In this document: piece after piece, positions 22,009 to 63,744 of the stretch
Numbering within the stretch: position 1 is the first letter of the stretch
Layout of the letters: the number at the start of each line of letters is the position of its first letter
Origin: Bryoerythrophyllum caledonicum
Taxonomy: Eukaryota; Streptophyta; Bryopsida; Pottiales; Pottiaceae
Assembly: GCA_963971425.1 (NCBI GenBank)
Contig: OZ020523.1
Coordinates: 14,442,867 to 14,506,866, forward strand
Reading direction: 5' to 3'
Length of the DNA stretch: 64,000 nucleotides
The notes under the pieces: model-generated
Seen by the model: only the letters and a program-made list of their open reading frames with translations
The model's database searches: none
Told to the model about the DNA's origin: nothing
Program-made: the position numbers and the translations under genes

Positions 22009-22562
22009 TTAACCCTGAAAGCCACTGATTTATAGCACCCAAACTCATTGAAAACTGCCAGTTTCAATGCATTCAACGCAGAATGAAAGTCAACATAATT
22101 TTTACTTATCTAATCCTAGGATCTTGTACTACGATTGTAGAAGTGTGTGGTAAATTTTTTGTTCGGTTTGGCTACAAGGATTGAAAGATATTAGCCTTTG
22201 AAATTCAAAAATCTGTACAGTAGATGCAAATATTTACATTTTCTTTCCAAGAGGATTTTTTCTTTTTCTTAATGGACAAAAATTCAAATTTTCATTGAAT
22301 TTAGAATTCATTAAAGTATTGCTACTTATTTGTTATATGTCACACCAAACTGTTGCACTATCTGTATATGTTAGTGAAAAAAATTGTAACTTTTAAACTA
22401 TAAGTTGGATTTGTACCCATAAATAAACAAATGTCTACGGGAAGCTAATAAAAAGTTGCCCATTCATTAAAAAATCTCAAAAATTCATGCCTAACTTTGA
22501 AATTGTGAACCTTATCCAAACTCAAAATGTCCTCCAAGGGGCATTGGGCCTTTAGGGGTTAC
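22009..22562. mobile_element. TTAA-flanked non-autonomous transposon, copy 1
   Basis: Starts TTAA/CCCTGAAAGCC and ends GGGCCTTTAGGGG/TTAC, the terminal inverted repeat of the family with one base of the right TTAA changed. The interior resembles the copy at 31617-32434. Confidence 0.65.
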
Positions 22563-22684
22563 TACAACAATTTCTTTTGTAGAATTAGGATTAAATGAAT
22601 TTGAATCACTTTTAGTTTTATACAATAGATTCATATTGCACTACATACACCATGTATCGATATTGACTTTTTTACCTAAGTATT

Positions 22685-22896
22685 TTAATTCCTAAAGGAC
22701 CACGGCATTTGAGAGGAATCTCTACTCCTTTGAATTAAAATTGTGAAGATGAACATTTTGAGAATGCAACCATGGGATTTTCTTCTAAACCAACATGAGA
22801 TGATGTGGTAATTTTTTTGTAATCTTGACCATACATGTTGGAGTCAAAGTTAAAAAAATTGTCCCTCAAATGGACAATTCATCCTTTAGGGGTTAA
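22685..22896. mobile_element. TTAA-flanked non-autonomous transposon, copy 2 (short, 212 bp)
   Basis: TTAA/TTCCTAAAGGACCAC on the left and ATCCTTTAGGGG/TTAA on the right. Both TTAA sites are intact. The short length suggests an internally deleted copy. Confidence 0.75.
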
Positions 22897-24512
22897 TAAT
22901 ACTATTTGAGGGCACAAATCATTCCATTGATATGAAATTCAACTTACTGATAACTACTTGCTTATGTATTTAACTTTGTCGAATACAAAAACTGCTAAAT
23001 TTTAATAAATTATTTGTATTCTACAGCGTAATATACGTCCATGTATATATGGTTTGTAACACCTAGGTGATACCCGTTGTGTCCGAATCAATGTGGATTG
23101 AAAAGAATAATTAATTGAAACCCGACCAATGGCTATGGTAATAACTTGTTTTACTAGACTCCTTCTGGAATTGCAAAAGGTAACTTTTGGTTGTATTTAA
23201 AGCTGAAGACAAGGAATGTTGAGGAAAAAAAGTCGGCAAACGCGCAAACCGCTAAAAAACAACATCGACAACGAAGAAGATAGAAATATAGAAGAAAACG
23301 TCGCAATTCGAGGAACAAGCTCATCGTCCTCGTCCCCGTCTCGTCGTCGTCGTCGCTGTCGCTGGTCGTCCTGCGCGAAACCAGGCTTCTCTTTGCTCGC
23401 TCCTCATCCTTCGCCTTCGCCGCAGCATCTTGCGCAGGCGAAGATCCTTGGACTCCATTTTTCTGAGCTCGATGTGGTCTAGGCTGCCGTCGCGTTTGAC
23501 TGCTTTCGCATCCATGGCGCCTGCAGCTGGTTCGGTTTAGCAGGGCCTGGATCGCTTTCTTTTGGAGTTGGAGTTGGAGTCGACGATCTGATTGACGTGA
23601 TCATGATGATCGGCTCGAGGAGCTAGGTGTTCGGGTGAGTGTTCTGACTGTGTTGTTCGTTTTGGTTTTTAGGAATTTGAGTCGCGGGGGATGTTGTGGT
23701 AGGGTTTAGTTTCTGGTTGCGGGATTCTATTGTTCTTGTTCGGAAGCTAGGCTAGTTGCGGTGGAGAATAATGCGTGTTTGGTCGATGAGCTGGTGCTTT
23801 TGTTCGCGGTTGTTGGAGTGAATATTCTGATTAATGTTATTGTTCTGGTTTTTAGGATCGTTTTGGTTTTGGTGGCCTAATTTTAATACTGGTTCCGCGA
23901 TCGGTTGGTAGGGTTGACTGTTAGGTCGTCTCATTGCGGAGTTTTGTTTTGTTGATTGGATAAGATCTATCTGTAGTAGAAAAGTGCGTGGTTGATTAAG
24001 TGTAGGTCGATGAGGCGGATGGCTTGTTATAAGTGATGGTATTTATTTTATTGCTCGCGGTGTTGTATGCTGTGTAGGTGAGTGTTTTGACTGTGTTTTG
24101 ACTGTGTAGGTGAGTGTTTTGACTGTGTTATTGTTTGGCCGTTGATGGTTTGTTGGAAGGGATGGTATTTAAATTTGTTTTTAGCAGTGCGTGAAGAAGA
24201 GGAAGAATATGTGGTAGTTTGTGGAGGCGTATCCTGATGCTTCGTTAAGTATGGAGTGGGATGTGAGATTCGCCTCTGTTTCTTGGTTTAGGAATGATCC
24301 TTTTTCAGATAAATGCGTGTTTGATTGAGCAGAGCTCGATGAGGTTGATGGTTTGTTAGAAGCGATGGTATTCGTTTTTGTTTGTATGAAGAGGAGGAAT
24401 ATATCCTGGTGCATTGTTATGTATGGAGTGGGATGTGGGAATCTGGTTTAGGGGTGGTTTGAAATGCTAAGGTTTGGGGAATTGACAGGGCGAGCGGTGG
24501 TGTGATTCCAAG
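22897..24512 (+). other. Upstream region and 5' leader of the glycosyltransferase-like gene
   Basis: From about 23300 the sequence becomes GC-rich and gene-like, with CGTCGTCGTC repeats. A good donor (TTCGG/GTGAGT after 23634) and acceptor (TTGACAG before 24489) suggest an untranslated intron of about 850 bp just upstream of the ATG at 24513. The intron holds near-repeats of GTAGGTGAGTGTTTTGACTG around 24075-24130. Confidence 0.45.
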
Positions 24513-25388
24513 ATGCAGGAGCGCGGGCGGCCAGTGATGAAAATCCGGGTGAAAATCTCGCTCGTGATCCTGCTGTGCGTGGTGTCGTTCGGGGGCCTGC
24601 TGCTGGAGTATCGCGGGGTGTTCGTGCAGAAGTACACGCAAGATCACGGAAGTACACAGAATTTGGTGGACAACGTGAGCTTCGACGGCGTGGTGCTGAG
24701 CATGAAGAGCGAGCGGTACGAGCACACGCGTAGCGTGCTCACGGGTCTGGGCATCAAGGTGGAGCAGAAGGTGCCGCCGTCGTACAGTTCCAAGGAGGTG
24801 GAGCAGGGGCTGGAGCGCTTCGTGGGCTCGCGCGTCTTCCACACGCCGCCCTTCCTCAAGGTGTGGTCCAACCGCATGGCGTTCATCGACGCACTGGAGG
24901 AGTTCGTGCAGGACACCAACTGCACGTCCGCGTCGTGGCGCTTCTTCTTCGAGGACGACATCGCCATCCACCCCAACGTCACCTCCGCCAGAGCGCGCGT
25001 CCTGCTCACCAAGGGCGTCGAGCTGGCGGACAAGGACGGTTTCATGTTCCTGGGCATCTGTGGCCCGCATTGCGCCGAGGACTTTGTCCTCATGGACAAC
25101 GAAGTCCAGGCCGCTCGCTGCGCAGGGACGTGCGCTCACGCCTTCGGTTTCCAGCGCTGGATGGCCGCCCAGTTCCTCACCGAGATGAGCGGCCTCTCTC
25201 TCACAGGCGTGGAGGGCCCTATTGTGCTCAGCTTCTACTTTGACCGCTACATGTACGAGTACGCCAAACAGGTGCAAAAGGTTTGGGTCGTGGGCAGCAA
25301 CCTCAAGAGCCCTGTGCAAACGGTGTTCGACCACTTCGGCCTCCTCTTCCAAGACCGAGCCCTGTATCCATCCACCATCGGCAAGTAG
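24513..25388 (+). CDS. Type II membrane glycosyltransferase-like protein (GT25-like), 291 aa
   Basis: The intronless coding region starts MQERGRPVMKIRVKIS, with a single membrane segment at about residues 11-31 (ISLVILLCVVSFGGLLLEY). This topology puts the rest in the Golgi or ER lumen. The lumenal part begins FDGVVLSMKSERYEHTRSVL, like the first strand of LPS-type glycosyltransferases. At about residues 144-151 it carries FFFEDDIAIHP, the acidic ExD/DD motif expected to hold a metal-bound sugar nucleotide. Cysteines cluster in GICGPHCAED and ARCAGTCAHAFGF, and the end reads FDHFGLLFQDRALYPSTIG. Length is short for a full GT domain plus stem but plausible. I do not recognise a named plant gene; the GT25-like call rests on motif pattern only. 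Strong GC bias at third positions produces long shadow frames, which I ignored. Confidence 0.6.
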   Translation: MQERGRPVMKIRVKISLVILLCVVSFGGLLLEYRGVFVQKYTQDHGSTQNLVDNVSFDGVVLSMKSERYEHTRSVLTGLGIKVEQKVPPSYSSKEVEQGLERFVGSRVFHTPPFLKVWSNRMAFIDALEEFVQDTNCTSASWRFFFEDDIAIHPNVTSARARVLLTKGVELADKDGFMFLGICGPHCAEDFVLMDNEVQAARCAGTCAHAFGFQRWMAAQFLTEMSGLSLTGVEGPIVLSFYFDRYMYEYAKQVQKVWVVGSNLKSPVQTVFDHFGLLFQDRALYPSTIGK

Positions 25389-25432
25389 AGGCCAAACCCT
25401 CACCAAAACCATACTTCATTTCGAAAGCTGTA

Positions 25433-25990
25433 CAGTACATCGGTTTCGGACGCATCATCCTCAAGTGAATTACTTAACCCTGGTCTCATGAGTTGAGTTT
25501 GTGTAGCTTACAAGGGATTCCAGACAAGTTCATAATAGCTTCAAGTGGTGATTTTATGTTTTGGGCCTTGGTCTGTCAACTAGCACATCAGGGCAGGAAG
25601 CAGTGTATTCTGTTGTAAAGTACAGGACCCTACGACCGACCTTTCAACCAGTGAGCATTACAGGTTAGGACATTTTTTGTTTGTTTTCAGCAGTATTTGA
25701 TAAAAATTGATTACGGTACATTGGTTTTGCAGTATCAGACGCATCATCCTCAAGTAAAACCCTGGTCTTATGAGTTGAGTTTGTGTAGTTTAGAAGAGAT
25801 TTCAGACAGATTTTCAATAGCTTCAAGTGGTGATTTTTTGCGTTGGGCCTTGGTCTGTCACCAGCACATCACGGCAGGAAGCAGTGTATTGTGTTGTACA
25901 GGACGTCACGACCGACCTTTCAACCAGTGAGCATTACAGGTGAGAACATTTTTTGTTTGTGAATTAGCAATATTTGTGATGATAAAAATT
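25433..25990 (+). repeat. 289-bp tandem duplication in the presumed 3' untranslated region
   Basis: The segment starting near GGACGCATCATCCTCAAG (25449) recurs at 25738 with a period of 289 bp. It is readable through GCTTCAAGTGGTGATTTT, GGGCCTTGGTCTGTCA and ACCAGTGAGCATTACAGGT in both copies. Divergence of about ten percent makes it an old duplication. Confidence 0.8.
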
Positions 25991-27348: not shown

Positions 27349-28295
27349 TTATCCCCTAAATTACCAAGCCAGTTTCAACCTAAAATACTTCAAAACTACC
27401 CGTCTCAATGCAATGAGTAAAGAAGAAAACAAAAAGTATAATATCTAGATAAAAGTGTAGAATCTTAATAAGGACTTATTAAGTAACGTACTCACAAAAT
27501 TTCATAAACTTTGACCGGACGGATTGAAAGATTATAGTGTTTGAAGTACAAAAAAGGGTTCATTTTCTTCCCTGCGTTTAGTCAATTAGCAAACTTTGAC
27601 TTCACTTGGTGTCCAATTTTGCACTACACAAGGTCTAAATTCATTACCACCATGTTATGTATGATATTAGTTTCTTGTACGCCAATTTTTAGAGGTAAAC
27701 AAAGGGTGTAGCATATTCAATAAAATTGTGCAAGGAGTGGAGGTTCAAAAATTGACAATTCACGAATATTTTTTTGTGAACTTAATATGATTAAGATCGA
27801 TAATCCGAATGGTCAATAAAAAAATTTACACCACATAATCTTGTGGAGAAAATTAAAAGTAAAAAACACGAAGATCTCAAAGTTTCATGTGGAAAGGAAG
27901 AAGATTTTTTGGTACCTTGCTGGACAATGTACGACAATGTGTGAAAATGTTTGGCTTGGATTAATATGCTATTTTTCACTAAAAAAATAGATTTTTTGAC
28001 AATTTGGAAGGAAATAATACTATTTGCTATTATTAAAAATCTCACATTCAATAGAGTGTCCTAGCAAAAGTTTTTGGAGTTGCTCGATGTGCCGGCTCTC
28101 CCCATTTGAACTTCAAAACCCTATAATTTTTTCTTTAAATGTCGGATTGAGGGAAAAAATGGACTCACACAAAGCTTTTAGTAGTCTCCATCTACATTTA
28201 AATTTTCAAAAAATAATAGAATAAATTGAAGCGGGAGGAACCTACCCGAACCTTCAAGAGTCCCCTTACTGGACTCTTACTAATTTAGGAATTAA
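27349..28295 (-). mobile_element. TTAA-family element, nested copy (about 950 bp)
   Basis: Left end TTAT/CCCCTAAATTACCAAG, right end TAATTTAGGAA/TTAA. Reads as the full-length family sequence in reverse. It sits within a family copy at a TTAA of the host element (GATCCTAATTAAGAC in uninterrupted form). Confidence 0.65.
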
Positions 28296-32445: not shown

Positions 32446-33360
32446 TTAACCCCTAAAGGACCAAGTGTTAAAAATGGGCTTTTTGAAAGTTTGATCAGGT
32501 TGCTATGGTGTCAATTTCCAACATCCTTCTTTGAAATTTTTATTGTAGAAGGGCATTTCAAAGACCTTACTTAGTGGGAGAACAAGTTTTTATTTTAAAT
32601 TGGACATTTGATGAAAAAGTTATAGGATTCTGAATTTCAAATGGGGAGAGCGGGCACCTTAGGCACCTCCAAAAACTTTTACACTCTATTGAATGTGAGA
32701 TTTTCAATACTTGCAAGTAATGTTATTTTCCTTCGAATCGTCAAAAAAAGTTTTTGTCTTTAGTGAAAAATAGCATTTTCACCCATTGTCACACATTGTC
32801 GGGCAAAGGTACAAAAAACTTCACCTTTCCACATAAAACTTAGAGATCTTCACATTTGTTACTTTTTATTTTTTCCACAAAGATATGTGGTGTAAACCTT
32901 CTTATTGACCAGTCGGATTATCAATCTAAAACATATTTAGTTCACAAAAAATTAGAGCGTGAATTGGCAAATTTGAACCTCAGTTCCTTGCACAATTGTT
33001 TTGAATATGCTACAACCCTCTTCTACCTCTGAAAATTGGTATAAAAGGAACTTATATCATGCTTAACATGATGGAAATGGATTTGGACCTTGTGTAGTGC
33101 AAAAATTTGACACCAAGTGAAGTCAAAGTCTTCTAATCCACTGAATGCAGGGAAGAAAATGAACCAATTTGCTTGACTTCAAACACTATAATCTTTCAAT
33201 CTGTGTGATCAAAGTTTACGAAATTTTGTGAGTATGTTACTTAGTAAGTCTTAAATGAGATCCTACATGAAAGTATTGTTTCCTTCTTTATTCAGTGCAC
33301 TATAATCCAACAATTTTGAAGTGTTTTTGTGTGAAACTGTCATGGTACCTAAGGGGTTAA
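32446..33360 (+). mobile_element. TTAA-family element, best-preserved copy (915 bp)
   Basis: TTAA/CCCCTAAAGGACCAAG on the left and CATGGTACCTAAGGGG/TTAA on the right. Both TTAA sites are intact, and the terminal inverted repeat of about 14 bp has two mismatches. The interior contains no open frame of note. This copy is a good reference for the family. Confidence 0.8.
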
Positions 33361-34886: not shown

Positions 34887-35077
34887 CGTTATCAGCACTG
34901 TATAGCTCATATTCCTAGAAAGCACAATTCGTTTCACTGTTCATTTTTCTGACACACTCCGAATCTGCACTACAGTTGTTTAGACAGAAGACTTTATTAC
35001 CAAGAGATTGAGCGGCCGGAGTGACGTCAGCTTTTTAGGAATCCCCCACTAGAGCCATAGGCACACACCACCTCGCG

Positions 35078-38000
35078 ATGGCGACGGTGATAAAACCAAG
35101 AGAGACACGAACCACCCCACTTTTCTTCGACCCACTTGAGGCAGACGGCTCGAATTACCTTAATTGGTACGTCGATATGAAGACCTACTTGAGCGCGGAG
35201 GAGCTGATCGTCACGTTGGAGGGAGAGCCCGAGGCGGAGATACCAGCCACCTACAAGTGGCAGACGCTTCTCATCATCCGGCGACACATCGATGCGTCCC
35301 TGCGTCAACAATACATACAGGTTGAAGATCCGGCGGTACTCTGGTCAGCATTGGAAGCGCGCTTCAAGCATGAGGAAACGATTTTCCTCCCCCAAGCCCG
35401 CAGCGACTGGCTCAGTCTGCGCGTACTGGATTTTCCGAATTTCATCGCGTTCAACTCCGAACTACACCGCATCGTCGCGCAGCTTCGCCTCTGCGGCGAC
35501 ACGGTTACCGACGTCGACTTAATCGATAAGACCCTCTCAACTTTTCCCCCCGCATGTGCTATTCTAGCTCAGCAGTACCGTAACATGCGATTTACACAAC
35601 ATTCGGAGCTTATGTCATATTTGCTTTTAGCTGAAAAGCAGCAGCAGATGCTCCTTAAAAACGCCGAGGCGCGACCTGCGAAGGAGGTTCACACAAGCGA
35701 AGTAAAGGAGAGCGGCAAGCAGCCCAACTCGACGACGCCGTCGAAGTCGACAAACCCCAGGCGAGAAACCCACAGCGCGGAGGCTCCCAGGCGACGATCC
35801 CGAGGCGATTGGCGCCCCCCACGTCGTGATCAACAGCAATCAGACAAGAACCCGAGGTACACACATCGACCCGATAAGTCGACAAGTACATCAGGGAGTG
35901 GATCGCGAGGGTCATGTCACAAGTGTGGTCGTCCAGGGCACTTTCTTAAGGATTGTCGAGCGTCACAATATATCGTCGACATGTATAGAGAGTTAAAGTC
36001 CTTAAGGGAAGGAAAGAGAGAAACCCATACTCTCGATGCCCCCTCCCTTACGCTAAACGATGTCGACCCAGAAAACTATATGGTACAGTTTGGGTCACAA
36101 CCTAGCAAAGCGAGAGTTGCTTTGTTAGACAGTGCGTCCACTCACACCATTCTCCAAGACCCGGCGTTCTTTGAGTTCAGAACTAGGAACGAGCCGTGGC
36201 AAACTTGTGATATAATCACCATCGCAGGCAAGCGGACCTTTAAATTCCGCGAGGGCCGGGCAAACATAGTCTTGCCCGGGGGAGCCCCCCTCACCTGCAA
36301 GAGGGCAATGTATGTCCCGGATGCCCCCCGGAGTCTGATCAGCTACCGGGATTTACGGGCCAATCAAATCCACGTTTCTACCGCGGTAGGAATTGATGAT
36401 GAGGTCCTCGAGCTACAGCAAGGCGAGAGACTCCTTGCCACCGCACACGCGGGAGCCACCGGCCTGTACGAGCTGCCCCTTGTTGGCGCTGTACCTAGCC
36501 CCGCTCGTAAGAGTGAGGAAGAGGATGGCGGACGTAGATCCCCATGCCTACCCCTGAAAGGGGTGCCGATGTCCTTTTTGACAACCAGCACGAAGGCTGA
36601 TGTTTGGCATCGCCGGCTGGGGCACCCTGGGACGACCATGATGAGAAAAATGGTCCCGACCTTAGTCGGTCACGACCTCTGCACACGGGACGCGGAGCGC
36701 GTAGAGGAGTGCGCGGCGTGTATACAAGGCAAGCTCATCCGCCAGCCGTCGCGATGGACGCTCCCGACAGAAATGCCCGCCCCGCTGCATCGGCTCCACG
36801 GTGACATATGTGGGCCGATCAACCCAAAATCAGGTCAGTTCCAGTACTTCTTTGTCTTGGTCGACGCATCGGGTAGACATGCTGAGGTTTCCCTGCTCAC
36901 AACCCGTAACATGGTTTTTCCTAAAACCCTAGCTATGATTATCCGGTTTAGAACCCATTTTCCCGATAATCAGATTTGTTTTCTTAGGATGGACAACGCC
37001 TTAGAGTTCAAATCACAAGCTTTTGAGGATTTTTGCACCGCAACTGGTATATCACTCACATATTCAGCCCCTTACGAGCACTCACAAAACGGACTAGCAG
37101 AAGCCTATATCAAAAAGATCCAACTGATCGTTAGGCCCCTCCTAATACACGCTAGCTTAGCACCTGAGTTCTGGGGTCACGCCGTCTTACACGCGGCCGT
37201 CCTGCTGCGCCTAAGACCCACACTATTACTCACACAGTCACCCCTCGAGATGGCGTCCGGTCGGACACCGAACGTAGCCCACCTCCGCACCTTTGGCTGC
37301 GAAGTGTGGATCCCAGCCCCCGAACCCCAACAGAAAACCATCACCCCTCATAGAAATCGAGGGATTTACCTTGGTTATGATTCCCCCAGTGTTATTAGAT
37401 ATAAACTGATCAATAGAGATGATATTCACAAAGCTCGGTTCCAGAATTGTAAGTTCATAGAAACTAGATTCCCGAGTGCCCAAACCAAAACCAAACATAG
37501 CAATCTAAACTTTAGATCACCAGAAACCTTGACCCTGAATCCAGATCCTCGTACGGCGTTAACCGACTCAGAAGTTAGAAAGATTTTAAATCTCCAGAAC
37601 CTCGCCGAGAAGATCCCAGATGGCTTCTACTCCGGTCCCCGGATAGTTCGTAGCCCGGTCCCCGGATCAGGAAATCCCGCATCAGAACCCGTTAAGAAAC
37701 GGAAACTAAACCATACACCCCGTTCCCGGGCACCCACAGTATTAAACACCGAACTAGAACAGCCCTGGGACGACGTAGAAATGTTTTTGTCAAGTCTTGC
37801 GACCCTGGACTCAGATCCCCTTACATTAAAACAGGCCCAAAAGAGTGACGAATGGCCCCAGTGGGAAAAAGCCATAGAAGCAGAATATAGTTCCCTTAGA
37901 AAACGAGGAGTTTTCGGACCACTAGTGACCAATCTGCTAGATAAACCAATTGGACACAAGCTAATATTTACACGCAAACGAAACGACCTAGGGGAAGTCA

Positions 38001-39424
38001 TCAGATTTAAAGTAAGATTAGTCGCCCAGGGTTTCACCCAAAAACCCGGCATAGACTTCGAACAAACTTACTCCCCCGTTATGGATAGTACATCCTTCCG
38101 CTACCTTCTAAGCTTAGCCGTCCAGCTTTCCTTAGAAACCCGCTTGCTCGACGTGGTGACAGCATACTTATACGGCGACCTAGACGCCGAAATCCATATC
38201 CAGCCCCCTCCCGGATTTCTCCCCGATCAGACCAAGCCTATCCCTGGAAAATATTCTGGTCTCAAGATCAGAAAGGCACTTTATGGCTTGAAACAAGCCG
38301 GCCGAGCTTGGTATCACCATCTCAAAACCTACCTACTGTCGCAGGGATTTACAAATGACCCCGCACTTCCGTGCATATTTGTCCTCAGAGACACGACGGG
38401 TTTTGTAATTCTTGCAGTTTATGTGGATGATTTAAATTCAATAGGCACCGTAGCGCTTAGCGCACGAGTTGAAAAGTTACTCACAGACAAATTTGAGATG
38501 AAAGTGCTAGGCCGTACTTCATTTTGTCTTGGCCTGCAAATTCAACACTATCCAGATGGAAGCATCCTTCTACATCAGCAGACCTACGTGAAGAAGCTTT
38601 TGCTGCTCTTCAACATGGCCGACGCCAACGCGCTGTCCGCCCCAATGATCGGGAAAAGTCGCACCGACGAGGACCCTTATCGGCCAGCAGAAGAGGAGGA
38701 AGAGGAAGTGGATCGGCCCAAGTATTTAGCAGTTGTTGGAGCGCTACTCTATTTGGCGACCAACACCAGACCCGATATCTCCTTCGCCGTCAGCGTGCTT
38801 GCTCGCCACAATCAAAAGCCAACCGATAGACACTGGCGAGGAGTTAAGCATCTCCTACGGTATCTGCGAGGGACGACAGACCTCGGCCTCCACTTCCACA
38901 AAACCAAGTCCAGCGCCATCACCGGCTATGCCGACGCCGGATTCAAGACGGATCCAGCCACGGGCAAATCTCAGACAGGCTACGTATTCATCAAGAACGG
39001 AGCGCCGATATCCTGGCGATCAACCAAACAGACGATCACGGCCACATCAACCAACCACGCGGAGTTAGTCGCATTTCACGAAGCATCCCGCGAAGCGGTT
39101 TGGATCCGCACAATGCACTACACCATCTTCAAGATGAGCGGTATTTCACACCAGGAGGAGCCGATCACTTTATTTGAAGACAATGCAGCTTGTATTGAAC
39201 AGGTTTCTTCTGGATTTATTAAGGCCGACCGTGTCAAGCATATCAGCCCTCATCTATTCAGTTACACACAAGATCTAATCGAAACACGGCAAATTCAAGC
39301 AAAGAAGATTGCTTCAGCAGAAAATATTGCGGACGTACTTACGAAGGCTCTACCCGCACATCAACACCGCAAGCTGATCAAAGCAGCTGGCATGCGGACC
39401 CTCACGGAGTTAGCAAGCGAATAA
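35078..39424 (+). CDS. Copia gag-pol polyprotein (1448 residues)
   Basis: A single frame holds the copia order of domains. A gag region of the UBN2/retrotran-gag type occupies about residues 15-210. A CCHC zinc knuckle follows (CHKCGRPGHFLKDC, about 280-293). The aspartic protease is at about 349 (LLDSAS), and the gag-pre-integrase motif is at about 510 (WHRRLGH). The integrase core spans about 570-760. The reverse transcriptase with YVDD lies at about 1114, and the RNase H-like domain at about 1281 onward (GYADAGF). Integrase before reverse transcriptase is diagnostic of Ty1/copia. It is treated as a fossil copy that looks whole. Confidence 0.95.
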   Translation: MATVIKPRETRTTPLFFDPLEADGSNYLNWYVDMKTYLSAEELIVTLEGEPEAEIPATYKWQTLLIIRRHIDASLRQQYIQVEDPAVLWSALEARFKHEETIFLPQARSDWLSLRVLDFPNFIAFNSELHRIVAQLRLCGDTVTDVDLIDKTLSTFPPACAILAQQYRNMRFTQHSELMSYLLLAEKQQQMLLKNAEARPAKEVHTSEVKESGKQPNSTTPSKSTNPRRETHSAEAPRRRSRGDWRPPRRDQQQSDKNPRYTHRPDKSTSTSGSGSRGSCHKCGRPGHFLKDCRASQYIVDMYRELKSLREGKRETHTLDAPSLTLNDVDPENYMVQFGSQPSKARVALLDSASTHTILQDPAFFEFRTRNEPWQTCDIITIAGKRTFKFREGRANIVLPGGAPLTCKRAMYVPDAPRSLISYRDLRANQIHVSTAVGIDDEVLELQQGERLLATAHAGATGLYELPLVGAVPSPARKSEEEDGGRRSPCLPLKGVPMSFLTTSTKADVWHRRLGHPGTTMMRKMVPTLVGHDLCTRDAERVEECAACIQGKLIRQPSRWTLPTEMPAPLHRLHGDICGPINPKSGQFQYFFVLVDASGRHAEVSLLTTRNMVFPKTLAMIIRFRTHFPDNQICFLRMDNALEFKSQAFEDFCTATGISLTYSAPYEHSQNGLAEAYIKKIQLIVRPLLIHASLAPEFWGHAVLHAAVLLRLRPTLLLTQSPLEMASGRTPNVAHLRTFGCEVWIPAPEPQQKTITPHRNRGIYLGYDSPSVIRYKLINRDDIHKARFQNCKFIETRFPSAQTKTKHSNLNFRSPETLTLNPDPRTALTDSEVRKILNLQNLAEKIPDGFYSGPRIVRSPVPGSGNPASEPVKKRKLNHTPRSRAPTVLNTELEQPWDDVEMFLSSLATLDSDPLTLKQAQKSDEWPQWEKAIEAEYSSLRKRGVFGPLVTNLLDKPIGHKLIFTRKRNDLGEVIRFKVRLVAQGFTQKPGIDFEQTYSPVMDSTSFRYLLSLAVQLSLETRLLDVVTAYLYGDLDAEIHIQPPPGFLPDQTKPIPGKYSGLKIRKALYGLKQAGRAWYHHLKTYLLSQGFTNDPALPCIFVLRDTTGFVILAVYVDDLNSIGTVALSARVEKLLTDKFEMKVLGRTSFCLGLQIQHYPDGSILLHQQTYVKKLLLLFNMADANALSAPMIGKSRTDEDPYRPAEEEEEEVDRPKYLAVVGALLYLATNTRPDISFAVSVLARHNQKPTDRHWRGVKHLLRYLRGTTDLGLHFHKTKSSAITGYADAGFKTDPATGKSQTGYVFIKNGAPISWRSTKQTITATSTNHAELVAFHEASREAVWIRTMHYTIFKMSGISHQEEPITLFEDNAACIEQVSSGFIKADRVKHISPHLFSYTQDLIETRQIQAKKIASAENIADVLTKALPAHQHRKLIKAAGMRTLTELASE

Positions 39425-39929: not shown

Positions 39930-40833
39930 TGTTAAGGTTTGGGCAGGTTCCTATGGTGTCAACTTATAACATTCCTCTTTGAAATTTCTATTATAGATGG
40001 ACTTTGCTATGAGTCCAATTCTTACTTGAATCCGACAATTTATGAAAAAATTGTGGGGATTTGAATTCTAAATGGGGAGACTGGGCATGTTCGGCAACTC
40101 CAAAAACTTTTACCAGGACAATCTATTGAATGTGAGATTATCAATTCTAGCAAATGATATCATTTCCTTTCATATTGTCAAAAATCTCTTGTCATAATTG
40201 GAAAACAACAGAATAATCTAAGTCAAACATTTTTGCACATTGTCACACTTTGTTGGGCAAGGTACCAAAAAAACTTCTTCTTTTCCCTATAAAACCTAGA
40301 TATCTACATATTTCTTACATATTGTTTTTTCTACTTCAAGATGTGGTGTAAAACTTCTTAAAGACCATTTGGATTATCATTCTAAAACATATTTGGTTCA
40401 AAAAAAGATAAAATGTGAATTGGCAAATTTTGAACCTCCACTATTTGCACATTTGTTATAAATACGCTACACCCCCTCCTCTACATCTAAAAGTTGGTGT
40501 ACAAGGAAATAACGTCATGATTAATATGATGGTAATGTTTTTAGACCTTGTGTAGTGCAAAAATTTGACCCCAGGTGTAGTCAAAGTCTGTTGATCCACT
40601 CAAAGCAGGGAAGAAAAAGAACGGATTATTCTACTTCAAACACTATAATCTTTCAATCCGTGCGGTCAAAAGTTTATTGAATTTTTGTGAGGACGTTAAC
40701 ACAAAAGTCGTAATTTAGATCCTACGAATAGATGTAGAAATGAAAGGTTTTGATTACCTCATTACTCATTGTACAAGAACGAGCAGTTTTGAAGTGTTTT
40801 TGGGGTCAAAAGCCTTGGGCTCTTCCGGGTTAA
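39930..40833 (+). mobile_element. TTAA-family element, left end degraded
   Basis: Family sequence in forward orientation from about 39935 (GTTTGGGCAGGTTCCTATGG) to GGCTCTTCCGGG/TTAA at 40830-40833. The left terminal CCCC is not recognisable. It abuts the next copy, sharing one TTAA. Confidence 0.6.
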
Positions 40834-42703
40834 CCCCTAAATTTCCAAGAGTCCCCTCGGGGGACTCTAGAAGGTTTGGGCATGTACCTCCTGTGTCAAT
40901 TTATTACATTATTTTTTGAAATTTTATAGTAGATGGACATTACTAAAAGCTTTGTGTGAGTCCAATTTTTTCCTAAATCCGACATTTAATGAAGAAGTTA
41001 TAGGGTTTTGAAGTTCAAATGTGGAGAGCGGGCACTTTGGGCAATTCCAAAAACTTTTGCTAAGACAGTCTATTGAATGTGAGATTTTTAGTACTTGCTA
41101 ATAGTATTATTTCCTTTCAAATTGTCAAAAAAATCTCTTGTCTTTAGTGGAAAAAGCATATAAATCCAAGTCAAACAATTTTACACATTGTTGCACATTG
41201 TTGGGCAAGGTACCAAACTTCTTCATTTTCACCTAAGACTTTGAGATCATCATATTTTATTTTATTTTAAATTCCCGCAGCATTATGTGGTGTGAATCTT
41301 CTTATTGACCATTTGGATTCTCACTCTAAAACATACTAAGATCACAAAAAAATATAGCGCAAATTGACAATTTTTGAACCTCCACTCCTTGCACAATTTT
41401 TTGGAATATGCTACACCTTTTTTCTACCTCTTAAAATTGGAGTGCAAAGAACCAATATCATGCTTAACATGATCGAACTGAATTTGGACCTTGTGTAGTG
41501 CAAAGTTTGACACCAAGTGAAGTCAAAGTCTATTGATCCATGAAACGTAGGAAAAAAAATGGACCCTTTTCTCTACTTCAAACACAATAATATTACAATC
41601 CGTGCGGTCAAACTTTATGAAAATTTTGTATGTAAGTTACTTAACCCCTAAAGGACCACGACCACTTTCGCTCTAAAACCAGTCCAAAACTGCCACTGTC
41701 AAAAAGAGACATGCAAATCACATTTTCAAGTGAATTTTTGACTTTCAACCGTAAGATCTTAAAATAGACTTCCATATAAACATGCCATCAAATTTTGGTT
41801 GTAATCCACCGCACGGATTGATAGATTTTAGTGTTGAAAGTCAAAACAATGGTTCATTTTCATCCCTGCGTTGAGTAGATCAGCTAACTTTGACTTCATA
41901 TTGTATCAAATTTTTGCATTGTACAAGGTCTAAATCTTTTACCATTGTCTTAAGGATGATGTTATTTCCCAACACATCAATTTTTAGAGGTAAAAAAGGG
42001 ATGTAGCATATTCAAAACAAGTGTGCAAGGAGTGGAGGTTCAAAAATTGCCATTTCACGTTTTATTTTTTGTGAACTACGTATGTATTTAAATGATAATC
42101 CAAACGGTCAATAAGAAGGTTTTCACCACATATTGTTGTTGAAAAAATAAAAAGTGAAAAATATGAAGATCTCTAGGTTTTATGTAGAAAAGATGAAGTT
42201 TTTTCCCCCGTTACCCGACAATGTGTGAAAATGCTTGACTTGGAATAAAATGCCTTTTTACACTAAAGACAAGATTTTTTAAAAAATCAATCTAAAGATG
42301 GAAATCTTCTTTACATGTGTGAAAAATCTCAATGTCAATAGAAACTTTTGTCAAAAAATTTGGAGGTGCCCAAAGTCCCACTTTTGGCTTTAAGTGGTAC
42401 TAACTTTCAAACCACAAATCCAAAAAAAAATTATGTATGTATCTCCACGAAGCTTTTATCAGATCCTATCTTGAAACAAAAATTCAATTTAAAAGGATTT
42501 TTCTTCGAATTGTAGATACATGCCCAAAATCCAAAATGACCCCGGGGGGACGTTTGGTCCTTTAGGGGTTAATAAGTCTTGATTGAGATCCTATGGTTAA
42601 AACTAGAAGTAAATTTTTTTTGTTTTGTCCTTATTCATTGCACTTTAGCAAGCAATTTTGAAGTGAATTTGGTTTGAAATTGTCAAAGAAATTTAGGGGT
42701 TAA
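40830..42703 (+). mobile_element. TTAA-family element split by a nested copy
   Basis: TTAA/CCCCTAAATTTCCAAG on the left and AAATTTAGGGG/TTAA at 42700-42703. The element is interrupted at GTTAC/TTAA, where a second copy (41641-42572) sits, and continues with TAAGTCTTGATTGAG. Other copies of the family read GTTACTTAATAAGTC without interruption. Confidence 0.75.
41641..42572 (-). mobile_element. TTAA-family element nested in the 40830-42703 copy
   Basis: TTAA/CCCCTAAAGGACCACG on the left, GGTCCTTTAGGGG/TTAA on the right, 932 bp, reversed relative to the host copy. The target TTAA is present once in uninterrupted family members and twice here, which is direct evidence of a TTAA target-site duplication. 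Confidence 0.85.
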
Positions 42704-43309: not shown

Positions 43310-44105
43310 TCTCCCAAAGCATTTTCACACCAAAAACACTTCAGAACTGCTTGTTCTAGTGCATGAGTGAAGAGGGAAACAAATTTTTTATTTCTACATC
43401 TAACAGTAGGATCTCCATTAAGACTTATTAATTAACGTCATCACAAAAATTCATAGACTTTGATCACACAGATTGAAAGATTATAGTGTTTGAAGTGCAA
43501 AAAAACTATTCATGTTAGAGCTGACTCACAAACTTTGAATTCACTTGGTGTCAAGTTTTTGCACTACACAAAGGTCTAAATCCATTACCATCATGTTACG
43601 TACAATGTTATTCGCTTGTACACCTTTTTCGAGAGGTCGAAAAGGTGTGTATAACATTCAAAACAATTGTGCAAGGATTGGAGGTTCACAAATTGCCAAA
43701 TAATCCAAATGGTCACTAAGAATGTTCACACCACATCCTACAGTAGAACAAATAAAAAGCAAAAAAATCTAAGTTTTATGTCAAAAAAAGGTAATTTTTT
43801 TGGTGCCCTACCCGACAATGTGGAGAAAGGTTTAATTTTGGGTTAATGTGTTGGATTTCACTTAAAACACAAAATGTTTTTTGAGAATAATATTTTGCGC
43901 TGTTATTGAAAAGATCACCCCTTGATAGAGTGTTCAAGCAAAAGTTTGTGGAGTTACCAGACGTGCCCGCTCTCCCCACTTAAAAAATTCAAAACCCTAT
44001 AACTTTTTCACGAAGTGTCGGATTTAGGAAAAAATTACACCCACGAAAACCTAACAGTAGAGGGATGTGACACCAAACCTTCAGGAGTGTCCTTTAGGGA
44101 TTAAC
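43310..44105 (-). mobile_element. TTAA-family element, reverse orientation
   Basis: Reads as reversed family sequence from TTTTCACACCAAAAACACTTC to GTGTCCTTTAGGGA/TTAA (44102-44105). The left terminus is decayed. Confidence 0.6.
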
Positions 44106-44957: not shown

Positions 44958-46362
44958 TTAACCCCTATGGATCAAGTGTCAAAAATGGGCTTTTTGAAAG
45001 TTTAGTCACGTTCCTATGGTGTCAAATTACTCTTTGAAGTTTTTATTGTAGAAGGGCATTACCAAGAACAATCCCCCCCTAAAATTGGACATTTGATGAA
45101 AAAGTTATAGGGCTTTGAATCTTGAATGGGGAGAGTGGTCACCTCAGGCACCTCCAAAAACTTTTGCTAGGACACTTTATTGAATGTGAGATTTTCAATA
45201 CTCGCAAGCAATACTATTTCCCTTCATGATGTCAGAAAAAAATTATTGTCTGTAGTGAAAAATAGTATATTCACCCAAGTCAAACATTGTCACATATTTT
45301 CAGGTAAGGTACCAAAAAAACTTCTTCCTTTCTACATAAAACTTAGAGATCTTCATATTTTTTTACTTTTAATTTTTTTCCACACTGATATGTGGTGTAA
45401 ACCTTCTTATTGACCATTCGGATTATCAATCTAAAACATATTAAGTTCACGAAAAAATAAAGCGTGAATTGGCAACTTTTGAACCTCCACTTTTTGCAAA
45501 ATTGTTTTGAATATGCTACACTGCTCCATTACCTCTAAAAATTGGTGTAGGAAGAACTAAGAGGCGCTTTACACTATGGACCATGAGGATTGACCAAGAG
45601 AAATCATTTATTTTCATGGTCACGGCTCTTGGTCTAGAGCCGGGACCATGAAAAATGAAAAATTGTTTTTTGAGTGTCTTGGTCATTTCTCATAGTATAA
45701 AGTGGATTTGGACCAGGACTAGTATGGGCTCATTTTTTTAATGTATATATACAAATCCGGGAAAATTCATTCAAAAATAATAATTAAAATAAATTTCAGC
45801 CAATCATTGATTTCCGTCGAGTCGACCTATTTGCCTCGACCCAACGGAAAACTTGTTGGACCAAGACACATTATCCACTCGGCAAAAAATAGCATACTTA
45901 GGTAACCTCGACCTCCGTGGTCAATCTCCTTTTTTCAGGGTAGTATAAAGCGAACTCGGACCGAGACAACTTCCTCAGGCAATCATAGGTTTTAGAGGGT
46001 CGTGGTCAATCTCCATGGTCCGTAGTGTAAAGCGCCCCTAACATCATACATAACAAAATGGTAATGGATTTAGACCTTGTGTAGTACAAATTGGACACCA
46101 AATGATGTCAAAGTTTGTTGATCCATTGAACGCAGGGAAGGAAATGAACCATTTGCTTGACTTCGAACACTATAATCTTTCAATCCGTCCGGTCAAAGTT
46201 CATAAATTTTTGTGAGTATTTGCATGATAAGTCGTAATTGAGATCCTACGGTCAAAACTTGAAGAAGAAGTTTACTTCTTTTTCTTCTTTATTTAGTGCA
46301 CTAGAATCCAACAATTTTGAAGTGTTTTTGTTGTGAAACTGTCACAATACCGTAGGGATTAA
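44958..46362 (+). mobile_element. TTAA-family element carrying a Harbinger-like MITE
   Basis: TTAA/CCCCTATGGATCAAG on the left and AATACCGTAGGGA/TTAA at 46359-46362. It is interrupted at 45561-46038 by an unrelated MITE. Without that insertion it would be about 925 bp, the usual full length of the family. Confidence 0.7.
45561..46038. mobile_element. PIF/Harbinger-like MITE (478 bp) with TAA target duplication
   Basis: The left end GAGGCGCTTTACACTATGG and the right end CCGTAGTGTAAAGCGCCCC form inverted repeats extending about 34 bp (to GGATTGACC / GGTCAATCTCC) with few mismatches. The 3-bp TAA on both sides (45558-45560, 46039-46041) is the duplication typical of PIF/Harbinger. The interior carries further inverted words (CATGGTC, GACCATG). 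No coding capacity. Confidence 0.8.
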
Positions 46363-47789: not shown

Positions 47790-48383
47790 TTAACCGGAAA
47801 GGACCAAGTGTCCAGAATGGCAATTTGAATGCTTGGTCAGGTTCCTATGATGTCAATTTCTAACATTCCTCTTTGAAATATTTATTGTAGAAGGGCATTA
47901 CAAAAACCTCAGTGAAAGAACAATTCTTTTCTAAATTGGACATTTAATGAAAAAGTTGTAGGGTTTTCAATTTCTTTCGGGGATAACGGGCACGTTGGGT
48001 GCCTCCAGAAACTTTTGCTAGGACACTCTTTTGAATGTGAGATTTTCAAAAATGGCAGATAATATCATTTAATTTCAAACTGTCAAAAATAACTTCATGT
48101 CTTTAGTTTTAAAAAACAGCATACTACCCAAGTCAAACATTTTCACACATTGTCGGGCAAGGGGGAATTTTGTTTTCTTGCACTTCAAACGCTATAATCT
48201 TCAAATCTGTGCGGTGGATTGCATCAAAAAAATTATGGTATGTTCATATAGAAGTCTACTTTAAGATCTTTTGGTTAAAAATGCAAAATTTTACTCAAAA
48301 ATATGATTTTCATGCCTCTATATGGTGGTGGTCGTTTTGGACTCATTTTTCCCTCTAAAATGCTTTGGTCCTTTAGGGGTTAA
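47790..48383. mobile_element. Chimeric TTAA-family element (594 bp)
   Basis: The left part (from TTAA/CCGGAAAGGACCAAG) follows the forward family sequence as far as TTGTCGGGCAAG. The right part, ending CTTTGGTCCTTTAGGGG/TTAA, follows the left end of the other subfamily in reverse (compare 41641 onwards). It looks like a recombinant of two subfamilies with intact ends. Confidence 0.65.
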
Positions 48384-57049: not shown

Positions 57050-57562
57050 CATGGTTTTAGAATGATAATCCAAACAGTCAACAAGGAGGTTTACACCACA
57101 TCTTGTAGTAGAAAAAATAAAAATTGAAAACTATGAAGATCCCTAAGTTTTATTTGGAAAAAAAAGAAGTTTTTCTGGTACCTTGCCCAACAATGCATGA
57201 CAATCTCTGAAATTGTTTGCCTTGGGTTAATGTGCTATTTTTTTGCTAAATACAAAAAATGTTTTTTTGACAATATGATAGAAAGTAATACCACTTGCCA
57301 TTATTGAAAATCTCACATTTAGTAGAGTGTTTTAGAAAAACCTTTTGGAGTTTGCCTGACGTGCTTGCTCTCCGCATTTGAAATTCAAAACCCTACAACT
57401 TTTTCATTAAATGCCACATTTAGGAAAAAATTATACTGACAAGAAGCTTACAGTAATGTCCATCTCCAGTAAAAAAAATATTTCAAAGAGGAATGTTATA
57501 GATTGATACCTAGCAAACCTTGAAGAGTCCCCTCAGGGAATTCTTGGGCCTACAGGGGTGAA
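57050..57562 (-). mobile_element. TTAA-family element, truncated, reverse orientation
   Basis: From GAATGATAATCCAAAC to GGGCCTACAGGGG/TGAA (57559-57562) it reads as the second half of the reversed family sequence. The left half is missing and one base of the right TTAA is changed. Confidence 0.6.
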
Positions 57563-59749: not shown

Positions 59750-60304
59750 GGGCCACTTCACACCAAATGCCCGAGTCCAGAGTCCGTCGGTTTCCTCCAA
59801 TGAGATTGCTTGAATGGCCAAAGTCCGGCCTGTCGGCCTTCACACCAAAGGCCAAAGTCCAAAGGCCGTCGTCTTCCAATGTGCCTACAGGACAATACTT
59901 TTGGAGAGTTTTGGCGCCAAGGCGACAGACCCCCGAGCAAAACTCAGGTCGCCATTTTTAGTAGACCCAAACTTCCTTCAAGAGTCCGTCGATTATTTCA
60001 AAAAATAATCAAAATGTGACAAGATTTGGACTCTGAGATGAAAGAGGCCAAACTTTTTGGCTGATTCTTTCGGCTAATTTTTTTTGCTTATTTTTTGGCT
60101 GATTTTTTTTTACTAAATTTTTTTGGCATAATGATATGGGATTTGGACTTTGGACTTGGGCTTTGGGGCTTCACACCACAACCGCCCAAAGGCTTCAATA
60201 TATATATTTGATGTTTTTTTAATCCAAAAGTTTGGACTCTCGCCATAGTTTGGGCAGAAATTTTGACGGGCGGACTCTTGACTCGGCCCACTGTGAAGCG
60301 GCCC
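59750..60304. mobile_element. Harbinger-like MITE candidate (555 bp)
   Basis: The left end GGGCCACTTCACACC and the right end CACTGTGAAGCGGCCC form inverted repeats. Flanking triplets are TAC and TAA, close to but not an exact duplication. The interior repeats CCAAAGTCC and GGCCTTCACACCAAA. The ends are similar in style to the MITE at 45561-46038. Confidence 0.55.
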
Positions 60305-60790
60305 TAAACATCATTTTTAGTGTAGTGCCCAAGGAGATGGCAATTAGTTCCCACCTATCGGGCGAAAAACTGGTGCCACGTCAAGCGAATTGCTTGCACG
60401 CAAAAATAGACCAACTGCTTTCACTTTTGAAGCTTCAACCGAGGAGGATTCAACCAGTCTCTTCATTGGCCAACGAACCGATGAACCCACTGATCTCACA
60501 CTTACACATACAGCTCCGCGACAATCTTTTTATATAAAAACCTGGCCGACTCGACACGCCGATCTCGTGAGCGTCTAGACTGGTTCGTCGTCATGATCTA
60601 GACTGGATGCGATTCGTCACTGCAGGCGCGGATCATGTGATCGCACACAACAACAGCAGCCGCACATGCTCGCAGATGAGAGAGAAAACAGTCGCGCATC
60701 ACAGGAAACGTTTCTAGTCCGAGAGCGGATCAGTCTGCGATCCGAGAAGCGTTTCGAGGTCACTCCTCGTTTTCGGGGTGTGTGGATAGA
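60305..60790 (+). other. Promoter and 5' leader region of the ROD1/PDCT-like gene
   Basis: No exon other than the probable leader is supported. A TATA-like TTTTATATAAA at 60528-60538 lies about 255 bp before the start codon and is a reasonable promoter element. Confidence 0.45.
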
Positions 60791-61864
60791 ATGTGTGAGG
60801 GGGCGACGAGGAGGGGGAGTTCCAAGCACGGGAGGATTGAGGGGAAGGAGGCGATGAGGAGAGGAGGAGGAGGAGGAGGAGGAGGGAAGCAGCAGTTTGG
60901 GTTGGGGTCGCCGGCGTTTCTCACGTGGCGGCCGGCGAAGGCGTGGCGGGTGGTGCGCGCGCACCCGCTGCTGGTGCTGCTGGCCGTCAGCTTCGTGGTG
61001 GTTATCCCCATCGAGTACACGGTGAAGATGGTGGCGCCGGGGCAGGAGCCCTTCGACGCCGGGTTCGTGCTCACGGAGCGTCTCTACCAGTTCCTCAAGC
61101 TGCGCCCCACCCTCAACCACATCCTCGCCGCCGCCAACACGGTATGTACAAGTGTTTTCCTCGATAGTTGGAGAGGGAATTAGGGTTTAAGCTAGTTTTT
61201 CTCTTCTCGAAATGCTCGAGGAATAAGCTTTTTGTCGCAGAAGAGATGAGTTCTCGAAGCTCCAGAAGTTGAATGTTGGGCGCAATTGGTAGGGTTTTCA
61301 ACTCCTGCCATTGGGCGTTGTTCTTGAACGCTTCCCTTGGGTTTTTGCAGGCGCTGGTGGTGTTCCAGATCGCGTACATCGCGTGGGTGTGGGCCGTGGA
61401 AGGCCGCTTCCGCCCCACGCTCGCCTCGTTCTTCATGTACGGCAGCCGCGGCCTCTTGGGCTACTCCACGCAACTCCCAGTCCCCCAGGTAATCTCACGG
61501 CGAGGATTCTTACAATCTCTCGGAGACGGTTCACGTGAATTGACTGGGTTCGGGTTTGGTTTGGCAGGATTTCTTGGGATCCAAGGTTGATTTTCCCGTG
61601 GGCGACGCGTCGTTCTTCCTCTTCTTCTCGGGGCACGTGGGCGCGTCGCTCATCACGTCGCTGGACCTGAGGCGCGTGCACAAGGTGCGCGGCGCGGCCC
61701 TGATCGACGCCATGAATGTGCTGCAGACTGTGCGCTTGCTGGCCACGAGAGGCCACTACACCATCGACCTCGCGGCCGGCGCTGTTGCGGGCTGGGCGTG
61801 TTATCATCTCGCGGAGCTGTACGAGGAGAAGATGAAGCCCGCACTCATGGACGCACACTCGTGA
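60791..61864 (+). CDS. ROD1: Phosphatidylcholine:diacylglycerol cholinephosphotransferase-like (ROD1/PDCT)
   Basis: Three exons (60791-61141, 61351-61488, 61568-61864) join in phase 0 to 261 residues. After a Gly-rich start comes AFLTWRPAKAWRVVRAHPLL with a membrane segment LLVLLAVSFVVVIPIEYTV. Then come YQFLKLRPTLNHILAAANT and ALVVFQIAYIAWVWAVEGRF. The last exon holds the lipid phosphate phosphatase/sphingomyelin synthase-type active site: FFLFFSGHVGASLITSLD and LLATRGHYTIDLAAG, giving the His, His and Asp needed for phosphocholine head-group exchange. ROD1 works in the ER membrane, swapping the head group between phosphatidylcholine and diacylglycerol and so moving polyunsaturated acyl chains toward storage oil. 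The exon borders, conserved motifs and usual length (about 260-300) indicate an intact gene. The poly-Gly run comes from a GGA repeat at 60860-60890. Start chosen at the first in-frame ATG. Confidence 0.9.
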
Positions 61865-62407
61865 GAAAAAAAACACTTCCTCACCTCCTCACAAATCTAG
61901 AAATCGTAAATTCTACCTTCACAGAAAAACCATGATCTCTCCTCTTCAGCCTGATCAGTTTTCTTTTCATGATGGGATGCACCACACAGATTCATTTAAC
62001 TCTTCCATCAAGAGGTCTTTAGCGATGGCCATCTCCTTCTACCTTGTTAGAATCCATGATCTCTCCACTTCTGTCTGAGGAGGTGCTTTTTTCCACGATG
62101 GGGAAGTCTAGGTTTTAGGGTCAACTAAACCCTAAACCCTAAAGCCCTAAACCTAGGTTGACTTTCCCCACAGACGAGCCCTGGAACATTCTAGGATAGG
62201 TTTCTCTTGCTCTATCTTCCTGGCCATCTCCTTTCTAGGATTTATGGTCTTTCCATCACGAAGTGGGAAGGTTTCAGCTAGAAATGGAACTCTTTCATCA
62301 AGGTCTGTAACATTGATTGATGTTTTTTTTTTATACAAGTTTACAAGGCGATGGTGGAACTCTTTCATCAAGGTCTGATTGATGCTTCTTTTCCACAAGT
62401 TAACCCT
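61865..62407. other. 3' region of the ROD1-like gene with a telomere-like inverted repeat
   Basis: At 62108-62160 CTAGGTTTTAGGG...AAACCCTAAACCCTAAAG...CCCTAAACCTAG forms an inverted repeat containing telomere-type words. CGATGGTGGAACTCTTTCATC near 62350 echoes sequence near 62280. No exon is supported. Confidence 0.45.
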
Positions 62408-63744
62408 TTAACCCCTGAAAGCCCAAGGCATTTTCCCTCATGAAACATTCCAAAACTGCCATCCTCAATAAGTGGCAACGAAATCTAACACTAAAGTCTA
62501 ACTGTAGACCTTTAACCGTACGATCTTAAAATAGGCATGTATATGAACTTACAGTTTAGATTTGGTTGCAATCCGTTGTATTGATGTGAAGATTATAGCG
62601 TTTGAAGTGCAAAGAAAAGTATTTTTCCCCCCTTGCCTGGCAAGGTCAGCCTACTTTGACTAGGCATATCTTCTAGTTTTTACATTGAATTGTGATCAAA
62701 TCTTTTACCAATATGACTTATATGTTGTTAGCTATTTGTGTGCAAAGTTTGAGGTCAATTTGAGGGGTAATAGATGTGGAAATATATACTTTAGTGAAAG
62801 GGGGTACAAAATGATAACAATTACTACATAAGTGATATTAAATTGTTTGTTTCATACAAGTTGTTGCATATGAGAATCCTAGTGGTGGAAACTGTCAATT
62901 TATTTGTTTTCACTAATTTTAGAAAAAGAAACGACTACAAAAAGTAAAGTCCATAATTTTCATGAATGTATGGAATAAATAAAGCATTATGGGTAAGGGC
63001 AGTGCTTGAAATTGAGGACACTTCACAAAATAAAGGGCCACGTCATTCATCTACTCCACTTGAAGTGAGGGTCTTCATGGGTTAGACTTGAATACAAGAA
63101 GAATCTTCAAAGCATTCAATAAAAATGAAATAAACAAATCTTCTTTATTTGACCTACACGGGCCCGCGGTGCTATAAAGGCGGTCGGTAGAATTGTTTTA
63201 TATTTTTTTTTAAATGATTATAAAAAATTTACAAAGAAAGGAAAAAGAATTGGCCACCCGCCGTCGACAGCCCCCGCAGCTGGAGAGAAAAAAAAATTAA
63301 ATTTAAAAAAAATCTCGGTGGGCCCGCTTTTGGTGCGGGATGCTGACGGACCGGCTGACGGCTAGTTGTTTGCTGTTGTTTAAAATTATTTTAATATTTT
63401 TTTTTAATAAATTTCAAAGCTTTTTCCCCTTGGACTTTGTACATAGAAGTCTGGACTCCTTTCCTCGCCCTTTCTGTCCCAAAATTCAGCCCCATTTTTC
63501 ATTGCATTGGTTGACATGGCTGCCCCTATAGTCTAGACTCCCCATTTTGATTTTTGACCTTTGAAGGCTAATAACTTTTGAATCAAAAGTCCAAAATCAT
63601 TTTTGAAAAGTTTTCCGTATAGATCTCATCAAGGACAATGCAGTGTAAAATTTTCATAAGAATCAGAGTATTTTTTCCACTCAAAGGTACATGCCCATAA
63701 TCCAAATCATACGCCCCACGTACACTTGGGCTCTTAGGGGTTAA
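62408..63744. mobile_element. TTAA-family element, long copy (about 1.34 kb)
   Basis: TTAA/CCCCTGAAAGCCCAAGGC on the left and GGGCTCTTAGGGG/TTAA on the right. The two ends match the ends of the 41641-42572 copy. The middle (about 62780-63540) differs and includes a GC-rich block, so it may hold an insertion. Confidence 0.6.

Follow-up and report, generated by a model that had tools for sequence, protein, structure and literature searches.

Transposons of the piggyBac superfamily are best known from animals and are a main tool of animal genome engineering. Their family traits are catalytic aspartates and a cysteine-rich C terminus in the transposase, duplication of the target TTAA and CC...GG ends. 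The available part of PMC10045372 likewise gives 4-bp duplications and CC..GG termini for piggyBac. In the available parts of the plant sources, PiggyBac is one of seven superfamilies of miniature inverted-repeat transposable elements (MITEs) in angiosperms (PMC10004981), and 1,230 PiggyBac copies, 122 kb in all, are given for C-fern in its repeat table (PMC6890710). Here we describe a family of short, TTAA-flanked repeats in a 64,000-nucleotide stretch of DNA, which as a whole is referred to as the window (C11:14,442,867-14,506,866, on a 25-Mb contig of a 437-Mb assembly of 894 contigs). These short copies are, with high probability, non-autonomous (MITE-like) piggyBac elements that would be served by a piggyBac transposase from elsewhere in the genome. 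The original prediction, made from the letters of the window, had called the family piggyBac-like, and this is supported by the TTAA duplication with its empty sites, the transposase frames, the shared type of end and the shared subterminal DNA, all of which are read directly from the sequence.

Short copies and the duplication of TTAA

A chance origin of the end matches was rejected by Markov shuffles and by a reversed-query control. The 18-mer TTAACCCCTAAAGGACCA, with up to three mismatches, occurs at 14 places in the window (mean 0.03 and maximum 1 in 100 order-1 Markov shuffles), and its exact form occurs four times in the window and never in the shuffles. Blast with 11 copies as queries, six from the window and five from other genome loci, assigned 12,425 of the 64,000 bases to the family in 19 merged stretches, and the reversed queries gave no match in the window. 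As predicted, the copies occur in both orientations (the 32446 type lies on the plus strand at 32446 and on the minus strand at 28295-27349) and are non-coding, because the longest stop-to-stop frames reach only 52-89 amino acids (aa) in the seven copies tested. The four copies named earlier as examples with TTAA on both sides, those starting at 22685, 32446, 41641 and 47790, are all present. That they share their ends held in part: the ends of 41641-42572 are exact, and changed ends are found at 22685 (TTAA-TTCC instead of CCCC), at 33360 (the right end CCCCTTAGGTACCA carries three mismatches) and at 47790-48383, which starts with TTAACCGG and whose left end had indeed been described as slightly changed.

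Throughout the 437 Mb, the terminal 14-mer CCCCTAAAGGACCA occurs 6,476 times (3,254 + 3,222), compared with two occurrences of the reversed control, and 5,530 of these exact 14-mers (85.4%) sit directly inside TTAA. Exact ends are about five times as dense in the window as in the genome on average: the window holds four exact 18-mers, where the genome count of 5,530 would predict about 0.8. As a rough estimate, scaling the approximately 12-15 copies of the window down by this factor suggests some ten to twenty thousand copies genome-wide.

Because the element starts with C, a net duplication of TTAA could also be interpreted as one of TA or TTA next to a longer element end. The short copies might then be MITEs of the Tc1/mariner (Stowaway-like) or PIF/Harbinger (Tourist-like) type that duplicate TA or TWA and prefer TTAA, a sequence that includes TA and TTA/TAA; Stowaway/Tourist-type MITEs are among those described in angiosperms in the available part of PMC10004981. 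However, when the other three TTAA bases are kept, the outermost T is changed in 225 cases and the innermost A in 142, with 5,530 sites intact. The outer T is thus almost as conserved as the inner A, contrary to the expectation from a 2- or 3-bp duplication, which would leave the outer position much freer. The complete elements that match the short copies also encode piggyBac transposase, which argues against this explanation, and we regard it as highly improbable. The short copies resemble Tourist and Stowaway MITEs in being short, non-coding, repeated and located at T/A-rich plant targets, but those have 3- and 2-bp duplications and other transposases, whereas a 4-bp TTAA duplication and a piggyBac transposase are found here.

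Two filled and empty pairs, both of them paralogous and not orthologous sites, show one TTAA becoming two. Two TTAA enclose a copy of 0.89 kb with CCCCTAAAGTCGAAA ends at L031 and L032, and the homologous L029 reads GGGTGCCCAATATAG-TTAA-CAAGAAATCATTGTC with a single TTAA; because the bases adjoining this TTAA equal the end bases of the element itself, the L029 pair alone permits a duplication of 4 to 6 bp. In the window, removal of 41641-42572 and one TTAA from 40830-42703 leaves a sequence with 81% identity to 27349-28295 over 941 aligned columns, in which the empty site reads GTTAC-TTAA-TAAGT, again with a single TTAA. Because the neighbouring bases here differ from the ends of the element, the length of the duplication can be set at exactly 4 bp. 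At the position of the empty site, the copy at 32446 reads TTAG. Both pairs argue strongly against a duplication of TA or TWA, and the TA duplication of Tc1/mariner Stowaway elements and the 3-bp TWA duplication of PIF/Harbinger Tourist elements were each rejected on the 4-bp window site and the conserved outer T. The TTAA target duplication that had been predicted is therefore supported by the exact ends inside TTAA and by two empty sites, at which a single TTAA and no different duplication is seen.

Transposase genes and their relation to the short copies

A search of the genome with the PF13843 (DDE_Tnp_1_7) profile gave at least 120 matches (best E 6.2e-81), a lower bound at which 116 of 305 candidates had been scored and a few loci give two matches. 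Absence of the transposase from the genome was thereby rejected, and none of the 120 listed matches lies in the window, in agreement with the expectation that the transposase lies elsewhere. The profile had no match in 14 control genomes, which is a weak control if these are prokaryotic (one that is named is Synechococcus). Among the 21 loci that we examined (L029-L048 and L053), one open frame combines three aspartate motifs with a cysteine-rich motif in 13 (L031, L032, L033, L034, L035, L037, L038, L040, L041, L046, L047, L048 and L053); these 13 are not all independent, as L031-L033 are near-copies of each other and L035 and L040 likewise. Such an all-motif frame was not found in the other 8 of the 21, and the C-terminal cysteine-rich motif is present in 18. 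A Pfam scan of four transposase frames (L032, L034, L041 and L047) found DDE_Tnp_1_7 alone, and Pfam zinc-finger models had no match in these four at E 0.01.

The L032 frame matches the Protein Data Bank (PDB) entries 6x67 (E 1.4e-28) and 9c0f (E 1.5e-24), which we take to be piggyBac of Trichoplusia ni and piggyBat of Myotis. Its alignment to 6x67 covers about 400 residues and pairs three aspartates, presumably the catalytic ones of 6x67. The likeness to piggyBac and piggyBat further includes the C-terminal cysteine-rich motif, the TTAA duplication and the CC...GG ends. Unlike these two, the present elements reside in a land plant, are about 4-6.6 kb long, are accompanied by very many short non-autonomous copies and have open frames (stop to stop) of 813 aa in L032 and 1,059 aa in L046, compared with chains of 594 and 578 aa.

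At 10 of 20 loci (L032, L034, L035, L036, L038, L039, L040, L042, L047 and L048), the transposase lies between opposed TTAA-CCC(C/T)T ends, and these are complete elements; L036 has two candidate left ends, and ends of this type are also present in L046, where one of the two TTAA reads CTAA. The alignment of L035 with L040 (97.2% over 4,944 columns) and that of L039 with L042 halt at TTAA on both sides, and because these boundaries were found by alignment alone, they are independent of the end search. L031, L032 and L033 are 99.35-99.85% alike over 5.7-5.9 kb, yet their flanks differ where both are readable, which suggests that these nearly identical copies moved recently. Short copies of the family lie within the transposase elements and also adjoin them. 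Two further frames were observed at these loci. In L034, a 430-aa frame with DUF7869 (5362-6651, plus strand) starts at the 3' end of the CCCT-ended piggyBac element, lies mostly outside it and probably belongs to a different mobile element. In L041, a 527-aa frame (6289-7869, plus strand) lies downstream of the transposase in DNA common to L041 and L043, where the 3' end of the element was not reached; a likeness of its last part to 2-oxoglutarate dioxygenases, noted by eye, was not borne out, with no Pfam match and a weak, unrelated PDB match (E 0.24).

Beyond the type of end, the short copies share subterminal DNA with the transposase elements. Bases 15-100 of 16 window ends were compared with 21 transposase-element ends, and at 11 of the 16 no more than 2 of 200 shuffles scored as well as the best match; the best partners of all 11 (L032, L037, L038 and L046) belong to one nine-row clade of transposases. 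The L032 3' end is matched by the right end of 22009-22562 (at 22562, the right end alone being compared) and by the left end of 44958-46362, with 0 of 200 shuffles as good in both cases, and also by the left subterminal region of 32446-33360, the right one matching none examined. The left end of the c-type copy (Table 1) matches the L037 3' end and its right end the L046 and L038 5' ends with equal score, and in 62408-63744 the left end matches the L037 3' end and the right end the L046 5' end. Random draws from the first 21 kb of the window never scored 22 or more (0 of 60, N-holding draws being skipped within the 60); the 42703 end, one of the 11 matches, has a score of 16, below 22, with 2 of 200 shuffles as good. 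An L036 end at 1159 was rejected as a transposase-element end because it could belong to the adjacent short b-type copy; when it was dropped, 27349 and 33360 lost their matches and 42703 fell from a score of 60 to 16. The 28295-side end, which matched the L038 5' end, was left out because its start is not CCCC, and 44104, which has no match, was added, so that 16 ends were compared both times. In a tree of 20 transposase domains, the CCCC-ended and CCCT-ended loci are split with 100/100 support; L036 was flagged as a long branch, and six CCCC-labelled loci (L030, L044 and others of which the ends were visible in part) were labelled by the ends at hand. Judged by this shared DNA, the transposases of the L032/L037/L046 clade are the most likely ones to have moved the short elements.

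Several observations weigh against a piggyBac origin of the short copies. Of the exact 14-mers, 946 of 6,476 lie outside TTAA, 367 of these differing solely at the outer T or the inner A. As TTAA was built into the end search, the end counts at the 10 of 20 loci are not independent, and neither are the 16 window ends independent tests, since several come from related b-type copies. No match past base 14 was found at 5 of the 16 (22896, 22685, 27349, 33360 and 44104), so the subterminal bases of 22685-22896 match none of the examined transposase-element ends. At none of the 21 loci was a transposase element found that has CCCCTAAAGGACCA at both ends; L037 is the sole locus with an exact CCCCTAAAGGACCA, at one end (3'), and a further 4 kb of upstream DNA did not reveal the 5' end of the L037 element. 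The prediction of a partner with the same terminal repeats hence stands for the kind of end and not for CCCCTAAAGGACCA at both ends, and the proposed search for a transposase gene led to DDE_Tnp_1_7 within elements whose ends are of the same kind and which have subterminal homology to the copies of the window.

Kolobok and Sola3 transposons likewise use TTAA. One of these superfamilies might move the short elements, the piggyBac elements being merely alike at their ends; the missing double-ended partner among the 21 loci would fit this, and Sola1 is listed for the moss Physcomitrella in the available part of PMC9033089. However, homology at 11 of 16 ends continues past the first 14 bases into the subterminal regions of piggyBac elements, and the four frames scanned gave DDE_Tnp_1_7 only, with no genome search made for Kolobok or Sola transposases. 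We give this explanation hardly any weight. An autonomous partner from another superfamily did not turn up, in analyses that included no search aimed at other transposase families.

For a piggyBac origin of the short copies, we propose that transposase encoded by piggyBac elements at other places in the genome would act in trans, binding the CCCCTAAA-type ends and adjoining subterminal DNA of the short copies and cutting them out. Mobilisation in trans, seamless excision and present activity are what we infer from these sequences. Excised copies would then insert into TTAA, which would thereby be doubled, and some inserts may have landed in the TTAA of older copies, which would account for the nested, abutting cluster at 39934-42703.

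Copies in the window, host genes and plastid stretches

Table 1. Copies of the short TTAA-flanked family in the window (positions count from its first nucleotide)
Position	Length	Strand	Copy	Ends and flanks
22009-22562	554 bp	.	short copy, probably piggyBac-type and non-autonomous	left TTAACCCTGAAAG, right CCCCTAAAGGCCCA; right flank TTAC, not TTAA
22685-22896	212 bp	.	short copy	TTAA on both sides; left TTCCTAAAGGACCA, right CCCCTAAAGGATGA
27349-28295		-	b-type; uninterrupted homologue giving the empty TTAA site of the 41641-42572 insertion	
32446-33360	915 bp	+	b-type	TTAA on both sides; CCCCTAAAGGACCA / CCCCTTAGGTACCA
39934-40833		+	b-type, left-truncated	TTAA at 40830-40833 common with neighbour
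40830-42703		+	b-type, split by the c-type copy 41641-42572	outer ends each flanked by TTAA
41641-42572	932 bp	+	c-type, within a TTAA of the b-type copy 40830-42703	exact CCCCTAAAGGACCA at both ends; TTAA on both sides
43314-44104		-	diverged family copy	one end TCCCTAAAGGACAC, within TTAA; subterminal bases without a match
44958-46362		+	b-type, in two pieces (44958-45580 and 46038-46362)	
47790-48383	594 bp	+	copy	TTAA on both sides; left changed to CCGGAAAGGACCAA, right exact CCCCTAAAGGACCA
57051-57562		-	b-type, truncated fragment	
62408-63744	1,337 bp	.	copy	TTAA on both sides; CCCCTGAAAGCCCA / CCCCTAAGAGCCCA

Family copies at 39934-42703 and 62400-62415 abut or nest via a common TTAA, and TTAACCCTTTAACCCC at 62400 presents two candidate ends that adjoin each other; older copies seem to act as targets into which new ones insert. 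Among the short elements, one open frame of 1,461 aa (35039-39424, plus strand) resembles, by eye, a Ty1/copia polyprotein and marks a retrotransposon that is probably young.

The window itself encodes a BAHD-type transferase, a DUF1635 protein and a fragment of AtPDCT1/2. Dynein heavy-chain sequences gave 10 matches on six large contigs; to our knowledge, flowering plants have no dynein heavy-chain genes, and a seed-free plant with swimming sperm is therefore likely. The host is probably a bryophyte. Complete psaA and psaB genes lie on both C894 and C821, and the closest solved relatives of three of the four proteins are 8htu, 6l35 and 7ksq (7ksq for psaB), which we take to be Physcomitrium entries. 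The two plastid stretches are 88.9% identical over 4.4 kb and differ in GC content (about 36% in L050/L052 of C821 and 32% in L049/L051 of C894), both being bryophyte-like; two bryophytes may be present in the sample, or one of the plastids may be foreign. Serine-for-leucine/phenylalanine changes in the C821 proteins may be unedited RNA-editing sites. A degenerate psaA/psaB-like stretch at C572:355-2466, with 39 stops in its best match, is perhaps a decayed plastid insert.

The presence of two different bryophyte-like plastid genomes in the assembly, together with the location of some transposase loci on small contigs (for example, C749, C384, C854 and C162), could indicate that the transposase loci belong to a contaminant rather than to the plant with the short elements. 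In contrast, near-identical transposase copies lie on chromosome-sized contigs (L032 on C3, 38 Mb; L033 on C9, 27 Mb), short copies are nested in and beside transposase elements, and plant genes are found in the window, on a 25-Mb contig. Contamination is thus very unlikely to explain the transposase loci, and we retain the reading that the plant carries both.

piggyBac elements in a land plant

According to the original prediction, no well-described large piggyBac family was known in land plants. In partial agreement, a 2022 review of land-plant transposons sorts terminal inverted repeat (TIR) elements into six superfamilies, its table listing Tc1-Mariner, hAT, Sola, MuDR-Foldback, PIF-Harbinger and CACTA, and its available part never mentions piggyBac (PMC9033089). 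A term search of PMC8729191 found no piggyBac either, and the available part of PMC10619864 has 'piggybacking' alone. On the other hand, the plant MITEs and repeats labelled PiggyBac (PMC10004981 and PMC6890710) carry the same superfamily label as the elements described here. In the available parts of these two sources, PiggyBac appears as a list entry, with neither a transposase gene nor empty sites, whereas complete transposase-bearing elements and empty sites are documented here in one genome. No report of complete piggyBac transposase elements in a land plant was noticed among the titles and abstract beginnings listed in a literature search, without subscription papers, preprints or Repbase, and an earlier report may exist.

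The piggyBac kind of transposon is thus already known, but for a land plant, a population of this size that moved recently is unusual. We think it rather likely that this land plant has a piggyBac lineage of its own that has diversified and still moves, with at least two deep clades of transposases (CCCC- and CCCT-ended), several intact and near-identical autonomous copies and about ten thousand or more short passengers, which would add a further TIR superfamily to those of land plants, one kept in seed-free plants. piggyBac is little mentioned in accounts of land-plant genomes. With intact, recently copied elements and thousands of short passengers in one plant genome, it can now be tested whether the superfamily was inherited from algae or arrived by horizontal transfer, and whether it was lost in other land plants. 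A piggyBac transposase already adapted to plants may likewise now be tested as a tool for plants.

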